DNA of 37,982 nucleotides from Saprospiraceae bacterium (GTDB taxonomy: Bacteria > Bacteroidota > Bacteroidia > Chitinophagales > Saprospiraceae). The notes under the pieces are model-generated. The model was given only the letters and a program-made list of their open reading frames with translations, had not been told where the DNA came from and did not search any database. The position numbers and the translations under genes are program-made. Below, piece by piece: positions 22,188 to 24,574 of this stretch. The stretch spans positions 1 to 37,982 of the forward strand of contig JANWVR010000044.1 in assembly GCA_025056735.1 (NCBI GenBank), read 5' to 3'. Positions within the stretch are counted from its first letter, which is position 1, and every line of letters begins with the position of its first letter.

Positions 22188-22212
22188 ACAGAGCAAGATC
22201 AAGCTGCCTCAG

Positions 22213-22258
22213 ACGCCTCTTCGGCTGGTGGATGCACCGGGTGAAGAGGCGTTTTTTT
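22213..22258 (+). terminator. Intrinsic terminator after the DUF1573 gene
   Basis: Perfect 10-bp arms ACGCCTCTTC (22213-22222) and GAAGAGGCGT (22243-22252) with a 20-base loop lead into TTTTTTT (22252-22258), 26 bases after the stop codon. Confidence 0.85.
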
Positions 22259-22271
22259 AATGCGAAAAAGA

Positions 22272-22293
22272 AATTCATGCCTTTCAGAAAGGC
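22272..22293 (-). terminator. Possible terminator of the leftward methyltransferase transcript
   Basis: GCCTTTC (22279-22285) and GAAAGGC (22287-22293) form an inverted repeat. On the minus strand it is followed by ATGAATTTCTTTTTC. The stem is short once a realistic loop is allowed, so this is a weak call. Confidence 0.35.
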
Positions 22294-22343
22294 GTACAGC
22301 AGTGTGCCTATTTAATCGTACAGCTGCCGCAAAATACCTCGAG

Positions 22344-22516
22344 CTACCTGCCCCTCTGAAGACGCTCAATTTCAGCCGTTATATCGTCTAGGATTGCCAA
22401 ATTGACAACCTCCCCATCTAAGCTGAACACAATAAACACTTTGCCGCCAAAACGGTCTGTGAAGTCCTGAAAGCTGGCGCCTTTTTGCCGAAGTCAAGGG
22501 AGTATCTCTTAGCCAT
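22344..22516 (-). pseudogene. Small frameshifted gene overlapping the methyltransferase stop
   Basis: An ATG at 22516 overlaps the methyltransferase stop (ATGGCTAA, 8 bp) and reads MAKRYSLDFGKK before the frame fails after 32 codons. Switching by -1 at the A-run (GGCAAAAAGG, about 22481-22490) gives a protein-like continuation KGASFQDFTDRFGGKVFIV...DDITAEIERLQRGR, ending at TAG 22344-22346. One extra base in the A-run would make a single 57-residue protein. So this is either a gene broken by a 1-base deletion, a sequence error, or a recoded gene. Neither half resembles a family that I recognise. Translational coupling to the methyltransferase is implied by the overlap. Confidence 0.55.
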
Positions 22517-23807
22517 TTTTTGCCAATTCATTAAATTTTTGCTGATAGCGATACGCTCTGGAGTTATCCACCCTGGCTAGGCCTTGTTTGAGCAGATGTG
22601 CGTTGAGGAAGGTTTTATTTTCTAAATAGAGGTAAACCATAGGCGTCTGCTGTTCGTCGCGTTGAACGTCGTCGTCGAGGCGCAGGAATACGCGCTTGCC
22701 TTTGGTTTTTTGGCGCAGGAAGTCTACGGCGTCGTTGAGTCGGGCCGGGTCGGCTTGAATGCCGATGAGGCGCACGGTATCGCCATTAGACAGGCGCACT
22801 CGTTCGGGCGAGAGGACGTCGCGCACAGTAAAGAGCGTCTCGCGTGGGTGGTCGCTCTCGGCGTCTATGCGGGAGCCGAAGGTGCGTTTCTTGACGTCCA
22901 CCTGTTTGTCTAAGCGATGCGGATCGCGGAAAACATAAGGTAGCCGGGCAATTTCCTCTGCGAAAGGGATGTCCAGCGGTCTTTGTTCTTCAAAGCAGAA
23001 GGCTGCTTCGGCGAAGAGCGAGCGCTCGTGGGCGGTCAATTTTTTGCGAATAATGGGGATGAATGCCGGGTTTATCTCGTATCCGCAAGAGTTGCGTCCG
23101 AGTTTCAAGGCTGCCAGCGAAGTAGTGCCGCTGCCAAGGAAAGGGTCGAGTATCCATTCGCCTGGGAAGGAGAACATGCGGATGAGGCGGCGTGGGATTT
23201 CCTCGGGAAACATGGCCAGATGTCCTTCCTGCCGTATGCCTGGAATGTTCCAGTGGCCGTGGAAGTAGGTATTCCACTCCTCGGTGGTCATGGCCGCCTG
23301 GGCTTTTTGCTCGGGTGTGGGCTTGGGCGCTTCTCCGGGTTTTTTGAACAGCAGAATGTACTCAAAGTCTAATTTGACGACGCCGTTGCGCGGGTAGGGG
23401 AAGCTGCCCATGACGCTGGCGCCGCCTGTGGTGTTGGTAGTAGTGGTTTTTTGCCAGATGATGCTGCCCATAAAGTCGAAGCCCGCCGTTTCGCAAAAGC
23501 GGATGATCTCGCTGTGGATGGGAATGACTTTATAGCGGCCATAGTAGACGGCGCGGGCGAACTGGTCGCCGATGTTGACGCACAGGCGGCATCCGGGCTT
23601 AAGGACGCGGAAGCATTCGCTCCACACCAGGTTCAGGTGGTTGACATACGTCTCGTAGTCGTCGTGAAAACCAATCTGGCCCTCGGCGCCGTAGTCTTTC
23701 AGTTGCCAGTACGGCGGCGAGGTAATGACTAGGTGCACGCTGTCGTCCTCGAGCTCGCGCATCCAGCGGCTGTCGCCTCGAATAATCCGGTGGGTCGTCT
23801 TTTCCAT
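22509..23807 (-). CDS. DNA methyltransferase (N4-C/N6-A) fused to SNase-like domain
   Basis: A 432-residue protein in two parts. Residues 1-265 are an alpha-amino DNA methyltransferase using S-adenosylmethionine: catalytic TSPPYW at 29-34 and SAM-binding DPFLGSGTT at 221-229, a beta-class order. Residues about 322-428 resemble the staphylococcal nuclease (thermonuclease) fold: GDTVRLIGI at 342-350, KGKRVFLRL and LNAHLLKQGLARV at 402-413. Against nuclease the arginine of the VRLIGI strand is kept, but the positions of Asp40, Glu43 and Arg87 read Gln, Pro and Thr, so this domain is probably non-catalytic. No restriction gene is nearby. The start could also be ATG 23813; the frame beyond that runs past a promoter-like site. 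Target specificity is unknown. Confidence 0.83.
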   Translation of the reverse strand: MEKTTHRIIRGDSRWMRELEDDSVHLVITSPPYWQLKDYGAEGQIGFHDDYETYVNHLNLVWSECFRVLKPGCRLCVNIGDQFARAVYYGRYKVIPIHSEIIRFCETAGFDFMGSIIWQKTTTTNTTGGASVMGSFPYPRNGVVKLDFEYILLFKKPGEAPKPTPEQKAQAAMTTEEWNTYFHGHWNIPGIRQEGHLAMFPEEIPRRLIRMFSFPGEWILDPFLGSGTTSLAALKLGRNSCGYEINPAFIPIIRKKLTAHERSLFAEAAFCFEEQRPLDIPFAEEIARLPYVFRDPHRLDKQVDVKKRTFGSRIDAESDHPRETLFTVRDVLSPERVRLSNGDTVRLIGIQADPARLNDAVDFLRQKTKGKRVFLRLDDDVQRDEQQTPMVYLYLENKTFLNAHLLKQGLARVDNSRAYRYQQKFNELAKNG

Positions 23808-23831
23808 AAGCATCGGCAAAATTGCCGCAAG

Positions 23832-23839
23832 CAAAGATA
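23832..23839 (-). promoter_or_regulatory. -7 element upstream of the methyltransferase gene
   Basis: TATCTTTG on the minus strand fits TAnnTTTG and lies 24 bases before the ATG at 23807. It argues against the longer upstream open frame being translated. A TTG occurs only 14 bases further upstream, closer than usual. Confidence 0.5.
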
Positions 23840-23951
23840 AGCGAAGCACCCTCAACCGATGGAAGGGCTGTGAGGCGAGCGTGTGCACATCCGATTTGTA
23901 GGGAACATTCGCGGGGCGGGGAGCCTGCGCTGATAGAGGGTATTTTCTCGG

Positions 23952-24023
23952 TGGCCCCGACAGGAATCGAACCTGTATCAAAGGTTTAGGAAACCTCTAT
24001 TCTATCCGTTGAACTACGGGACC
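23952..24023 (-). tRNA. tRNA-Arg (anticodon CCT)
   Basis: A 72-base cloverleaf on the minus strand. Acceptor GGTCCCG pairs with CGGGGCC (one T-G pair). The D-arm contains GTTCAACGGATAGAAT. The anticodon stem GAGGT/ACCTT holds loop TTCCTAA, so the anticodon is CCT, reading AGG (Arg). The T-arm is CAGGT-TCGATTC-CTGTC with the standard TTCGA. The discriminator is A and the CCA end is not encoded (ACC then G). It lies between the phosphoesterase and methyltransferase genes on the same strand. Confidence 0.95.
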
Positions 24024-24064
24024 GGTGTCTTTTTTTGCGCGGCAAAGGTAAGGGGTCGGCAGGG

Positions 24065-24574
24065 TTACGTCAAAGCGCCGCGTGGCCCTAATTCGATGAC
24101 TTCGACGCCTTGAATGGCGCCAGCCTCCACTCGGACGCGGACGAGGGTTTTTATTTTATGCCAGCCCTCGTTGCCGCAGGCGCCCGGGTTGATATGCAGA
24201 AAGTCTAAATCCCGGTCGGGCATCACCTTGAGGATGTGCGAGTGGCCGCAGATGAACAGGCCTTTTCGCGGTGGGTCGGCCTGCAGGATTTTTCGCACGC
24301 GCGGGGTGTACCTACCCGGATAGCCGCCGATGTGGGTCATGAACACTGGCACGCCTTCGCAGGTAAAGCGCAGGTCTTCAGGCATTTCAGCCCGGATGTG
24401 CGCGTCGTCAATGTTGCCGTACACGCCGCGCAAGGGCTTGAAGGCACGCAGGCGTTCCACCACTTCGAGGCTGCCAAAGTCGCCGGCATGCCATATTTCG
24501 TCGCAGGTGGCGAAGTGCTCGAAGATGCGCTCGTCCAATGCGCCGTGGGTGTCCGACATCACTCCGATGAGCAT
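24065..24574 (-). CDS. YfcE/MJ0936-type metallophosphoesterase
   Basis: A 169-residue calcineurin-like phosphodiesterase. All the metal-site motifs are present in order: SDTHG (7-11), GDFGS (31-35), GNIDD (53-57), THIGG (80-84), GHSH (about 110-113) and a final HINPGA (about 128-133). The size equals the YfcE/MJ0936 group, which hydrolyses phosphodiester bonds with Mn2+ or another divalent metal; natural substrates are poorly known. ATG 24574 begins the fold directly. The LuxE-like gene ends 15 bp upstream on the same strand, so the two probably form an operon. Confidence 0.9.
   Translation of the reverse strand: MLIGVMSDTHGALDERIFEHFATCDEIWHAGDFGSLEVVERLRAFKPLRGVYGNIDDAHIRAEMPEDLRFTCEGVPVFMTHIGGYPGRYTPRVRKILQADPPRKGLFICGHSHILKVMPDRDLDFLHINPGACGNEGWHKIKTLVRVRVEAGAIQGVEVIELGPRGALT

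Follow-up and report, generated by a model that had tools for sequence, protein, structure and literature searches.

The window, a stretch of 37,982 nucleotides from a Saprospiraceae bacterium analysed as a whole, carries an intact open reading frame for a two-domain DNA methyltransferase, two scraps of a restriction gene that adjoin it, and a tRNA gene at the edge of the block in which they lie (Table 1). The N-terminal domain of the methyltransferase belongs to PF01555 and has motif IV (TSPPYW) ahead of motif I (DPFLGSGTT), the order of Type II beta-class enzymes, with the motifs retained. In PADLOC the protein is matched from residue 4 to 425 by MTase_II (PDLC03259; 587 bits), and we infer that it would methylate DNA through its beta-class domain. 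In a tree of 79 methyltransferase cores the window protein pairs with that of locus L009 (100/100). Branches in this tree are long, so the position of the rows lacking the C-terminal domain is unsure, and that domain may have been gained or lost once or more than once.

Table 1. Features of the methyltransferase locus (positions in the window).
Feature	Position	Strand	Basis or remark
Beta-class DNA methyltransferase with C-terminal SNase-like domain, 432 aa	22512..23807	-	
Methyltransferase core, residues 1-257 (TSPPYW, DPFLGSGTT)	23037..23807	-	
SNase-fold domain, residues 322-432, catalytic positions replaced	22512..22844	-	
First 12 codons of MjaI-type restriction gene; ATG overlaps methyltransferase stop	22481..22516	-	reading frame; E 0.13 alone
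Last 45 codons and stop of MjaI-type restriction gene, different frame from first piece	22344..22481	-	tblastn E 5.5e-13, 62% identity
Block missing from two same-genus relatives, presumed inserted cassette	22188..23950	.	alignment stops 22187, resumes 23951
tRNA-Arg (CCT), edge of block	23950..24023	-	ARAGORN; also in relatives

Restriction-gene remnants and the presumed insertion site

The start codon at 22516 opens 12 codons that resemble the starts of intact relatives of the restriction gene, a piece that is non-significant by itself (E 0.13). Directly 3' of it and in another frame lies the 45-codon piece, which 38 of 44 intact relatives match at E <= 1e-3 and whose best score is 58.9 bits, vs 31.6 in 20 shuffled windows. 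Measured against the 233-aa protein of L047, about 170-180 codons are gone, a deletion that is read from the assembly. No intact restriction gene was found in the window, only the two fragments; the fragment beside the methyltransferase is the sole match to the restriction family in the genome assembly, and at E <= 1e-5 the window genome has no match to the Pfam family PF09568. The earlier note had called the methyltransferase an orphan with no restriction gene adjacent, which holds for its present state only. Since these fragments are still readable, the loss looks recent.

In two genomes of the same genus (G035 and G011) the genes for a DUF1573 protein and a metallophosphoesterase are adjacent, with tRNA-Arg(CCT) between them, and the same two protein genes flank the cassette in the window. 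Where the window has 1,763 bases (1.76 kb), G035 has 66. Either the block inserted next to the 3' end of tRNA-Arg, or both G035 and G011 have lost it; insertion is the simpler reading. At E <= 1e-60 the methyltransferase occurs in four of 36 same-genus genomes. The restriction gene is present over most of its length in two of them (G009 and G019), as its first 40 codons in G007, and not at all in G035, where the methyltransferase is 81% identical to the window's and lies on another contig. The closest relative's copy is at a different site. A gene found in four of 36 genomes, two of them with the restriction gene, does not have the distribution of a conserved orphan, carried lineage-wide without a restriction partner as CcrM and Dam are. 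No plasmid record among the 1453 with a match covers 80% of the fusion, and the one phage record of 546 that does (S-CAM3) was set aside, as its match spans separately annotated genes. ARAGORN also called a tmRNA at 23950-24472, over tRNA-Arg and the metallophosphoesterase gene; this call is probably false.

The restriction partner in relatives

The search for relatives used six peptide patterns taken from the window protein and found 80 loci; as three patterns come from beyond residue 257, this sample favours SNase-bearing copies. A survey for the same C-terminal domain, as the earlier note had suggested, found it in the open reading frame read at 66 of the 80 loci. The 65 of these with at least 700 bp downstream make up the partner count, from which seven loci without the domain (L070-L073, L082, L083, L085), seven fragments or disrupted copies (L052, L054, L055, L058, L075, L081, L088) and L079 (47 bp downstream) were left out. 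Within the 65, the open reading frame read for L084 and L087 is without the methyltransferase N-terminal part, and an internal stop interrupts L045. Residue counts use 65 of the 80 loci plus the window (66 proteins), leaving out the same domain-less and fragmentary loci together with L045. A second survey started from the restriction gene, was independent of the window-protein patterns and covered the order only.

In 47 of the 65 SNase-bearing loci a second gene family adjoins the methyltransferase over at least 0.91 of its length, and in 40 of those 47 it forms one open reading frame of at least 195 aa. Five loci (L038, L041, L044, L066, L084) match it in two pieces, so some of the 47 may also be broken. 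Remnants occur in three of the 65 (L016, L068, L074), and within the fetched downstream DNA the gene is absent from the other 15. Pfam assigns the scanned representatives of the family to RE_MjaI, PF09568 (six complete proteins and one piece; E 3.1e-29 to 1.3e-65), and both partner proteins tested in PADLOC are named Type II restriction enzymes. The restriction-first survey covered 298 genomes from the order and found PF09568 in 17. In 13 of these carriers the methyltransferase next to it aligns with the window's as far as residue 425 or further. Of the other four, one carries a shorter methyltransferase that matches up to residue 257, one a scrap of 25 residues, and two none within the fetched stretch. 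On two points these results do not support the earlier note. The C-terminal domain is common to the window's relatives, and neither an unusual design nor a role that is epigenetic rather than defensive finds support where the equivalent locus usually holds a restriction gene. That gene, whose presence in relatives the note had said would mark an ordinary restriction-modification pair, was looked for and is there in 47 of 65.

As read from the sequences, the restriction gene was lost by different routes in L016 (which retains about 19 codons from the start and 24 from the end), in L068 with L074 (last 45 codons) and in L093 (first 40). Four Planctomycetota-type loci without it (L056, L057, L064, L078) share their neighbouring genes, which suggests a copy retained in place without a restriction gene, and they are candidates for a true regulatory orphan methyltransferase. 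Another type of restriction gene beside methyltransferase copies that lack the PF09568 gene found no support: the scanned neighbours were a protein without a Pfam family in L017 and a nucleotidyltransferase in L046, and some other loci of this kind were inspected as lists of open reading frames. Comparison of neighbours found no other partner gene recurring beside the methyltransferase. The L017 reading frame (L017:1329-2003), without a Pfam or PADLOC match, occupies the usual restriction-gene position and is possibly a replacement partner.

Methyltransferases without the SNase domain also adjoin PF09568 genes (L070-L072, L082), so the domain is dispensable for the pair. Three of these loci (L070:4895-8609, L071:1893-5601, L072:4676-7830) each hold two tandem methyltransferases of the window's kind, of which the second differs in its C-terminal part, where Pfam finds no match. 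The tandem genes face PF09568-type genes, two in L070 and L071 and one found in L072. Survival of SNase-domain DNA beside domain-less relatives was rejected: with 43 domain sequences as queries, tblastn on 14 loci gave one 16-residue match (E 0.010, L072).

The SNase-like domain and the target sequence

The fold and the fusion are shown by sequence or model: the window's C-terminal domain has the SNase fold, as the earlier note had proposed, and PF00565 was detected in 30 of 40 scanned family members. Staphylococcal nuclease sequences are 16-20% identical to the window domain, among the matches listed. Positions were mapped with the numbering that we take to hold for that enzyme (Asp40, Glu43, Arg87, Arg35). 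The window has Q351, P354 and T388 at the catalytic Asp40, Glu43 and Arg87. In the alignment of 66 proteins with the SNase-like domain, the position corresponding to Asp40 holds K in 44 proteins, R in six and D in two. At Glu43, 29 proteins have P, 18 a gap and one D, while none has E; at Arg87, 35 have N, 10 have T, eight H and one R. None has all three catalytic residues together, and the nuclease activity has very probably been lost, much as the earlier note had suspected. At the position of Arg35, 62 of the 66 have R or K.

Two alignments were used: A1 joins the window with 39 of the 80 loci, A2 with 42. Across the 40 sequences of A1, residues G349, N397 and N402 of the SNase-like domain are invariant. 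The domain has a net charge of +5, a modest value equal to the median of 43 domains, and the core has -1. Simple pairwise estimates of dN/dS are about 0.09 in both domains for L056 vs L078, which lack the restriction gene and have common neighbours, about 0.13 in both for L068 vs L074, which have the same remnant, and 0.07 (core) and 0.20 (domain) for the window vs L009. The window and L009 copies are at different sites, so in this last pair the restriction gene was possibly present for part of the divergence time. The SNase-like domain is constrained by purifying selection also where the restriction gene is absent.

In 178 kb of the window genome no 4-base palindrome is scarcer than CTAG (28 vs 341 expected). 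Among four same-genus genomes without the gene it is equally scarce in one and low in two more, so its scarcity does not discriminate and was dropped as proof of the target. Pooled over the loci with the restriction gene, CTAG stands at 0.21 of expectation and ranks as the scarcest palindrome in 30 of 47; for the loci without that gene the values are 0.28 and 8 of 15. According to PMC6471742, CTAG is under-represented across prokaryotes generally. GATC is nearly absent from the sampled DNA of G009 and G007 (L127-L139; 0.04 and 0.05 of expectation) and AGCT is at 0.03 of expectation in G034, which points to strong avoidance of other motifs in the genus.

Kinship is what points to CTAG. On plasmid pFZ1 a related methyltransferase, with a core 36% identical to the window's over residues 3-258, adjoins an annotated MjaI-family restriction endonuclease, and the family search picks out Methanocaldococcus jannaschii among 14 control genomes. 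The pFZ1 enzyme is presumably M.MthZI, an identity supported by the title of a reference, which names a plasmid-encoded mthZIM gene. M.MthZI, M.MjaI and M.BfaI are described as beta-class 4mC enzymes of 303-364 aa acting on CTAG (PMC5867850). CTAG is thus the likely target of the window enzyme.

Origin of the locus and comparison with known systems

With the restriction gene in most relatives, fragments of it here and an empty site in close relatives, we are highly confident that the window gene is the modification component left over from a decayed MjaI-type (PF09568) Type II system. A mobile restriction-modification cassette of this type would have landed beside the tRNA-Arg gene, and an internal deletion would later have removed the restriction gene. 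The N-terminal domain would methylate DNA, most likely at N4 of cytosine in CTAG, and the SNase fold, its nuclease catalysis lost, would act as an accessory DNA-binding clamp, much as CcrM grips the non-target strand with an unrelated C-terminal domain of its own. In this full form the account has our moderate confidence.

An orphan by design is rejected on the frequency of the restriction gene in comparable loci. Recruitment of the methyltransferase as an epigenetic regulator after that gene was lost would fit the intact reading frame and motifs, and finds a parallel in the syntenic, purifying-selected Planctomycetota-type loci; the gene is, however, patchy in the window's genus, the closest relative has it elsewhere in the genome, and the readable fragments speak of recent loss, all of which make this fate unlikely for the window copy. 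A broader proposal, to which we give limited credence, is that the dead domain is a standard DNA-handling module of this methyltransferase family across many bacterial phyla and some archaea, kept as part of an epigenetic writer in lineages that drop the restriction gene, such as the Planctomycetota-type.

For the domain itself, constraint without the restriction gene together with a basic charge favours binding of DNA in the service of the methyltransferase, a role we regard as about evenly poised. Its constraint would also suit protein contacts (dimerisation or a partner), and non-catalytic SNase folds serve as interaction modules in extended Tudor domains (PMC7641849); the domain is basic, however, and no neighbour gene except the restriction gene recurs, and we hold protein contacts to be a tentative alternative. 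That the domain is still a nuclease, making the protein a fused restriction-modification enzyme, is very improbable: the fold is intact and the Arg35 position is mostly basic, but the replaced catalytic residues speak against it and a separate restriction enzyme usually lies alongside. What seemed an oddity thus becomes a clear case of restriction-modification decay, and the overlooked feature is the family's nuclease-dead SNase tail, constrained even after loss of the restriction gene.

Searches of open-access literature found no description of a methyltransferase-SNase fusion or of a role for the dead tail. The protein is already covered end to end by a known Type II methyltransferase model, PDLC03259 (423 positions), which includes the SNase region and also spans L060 and L056 end to end; the model is silent on the C-terminal domain, and the window copy has lost its restriction gene. 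MjaI/MthZI-type CTAG systems, which pair PF09568 with a beta-class 4mC methyltransferase, have the same restriction family as the window's relatives, but the C-terminal part of the 355-aa pFZ1 methyltransferase has no similarity to the SNase-like domain, and a hidden SNase domain there was rejected (hhalign probability 0.4, E 0.15). The match to TTHA0409 of Thermus thermophilus HB8 (2zie/2zif/2zig; deposited chain of 297 residues) ends at window residue 257-277. Staphylococcal nuclease (PF00565) differs in that the window domain's catalytic residues are replaced. CcrM is likewise a beta-class methyltransferase with a separate C-terminal DNA-binding domain, which according to PMC6787082 binds DNA without specificity; that domain is, however, described as SAND-like rather than SNase-like, and CcrM is a cell-cycle regulator.
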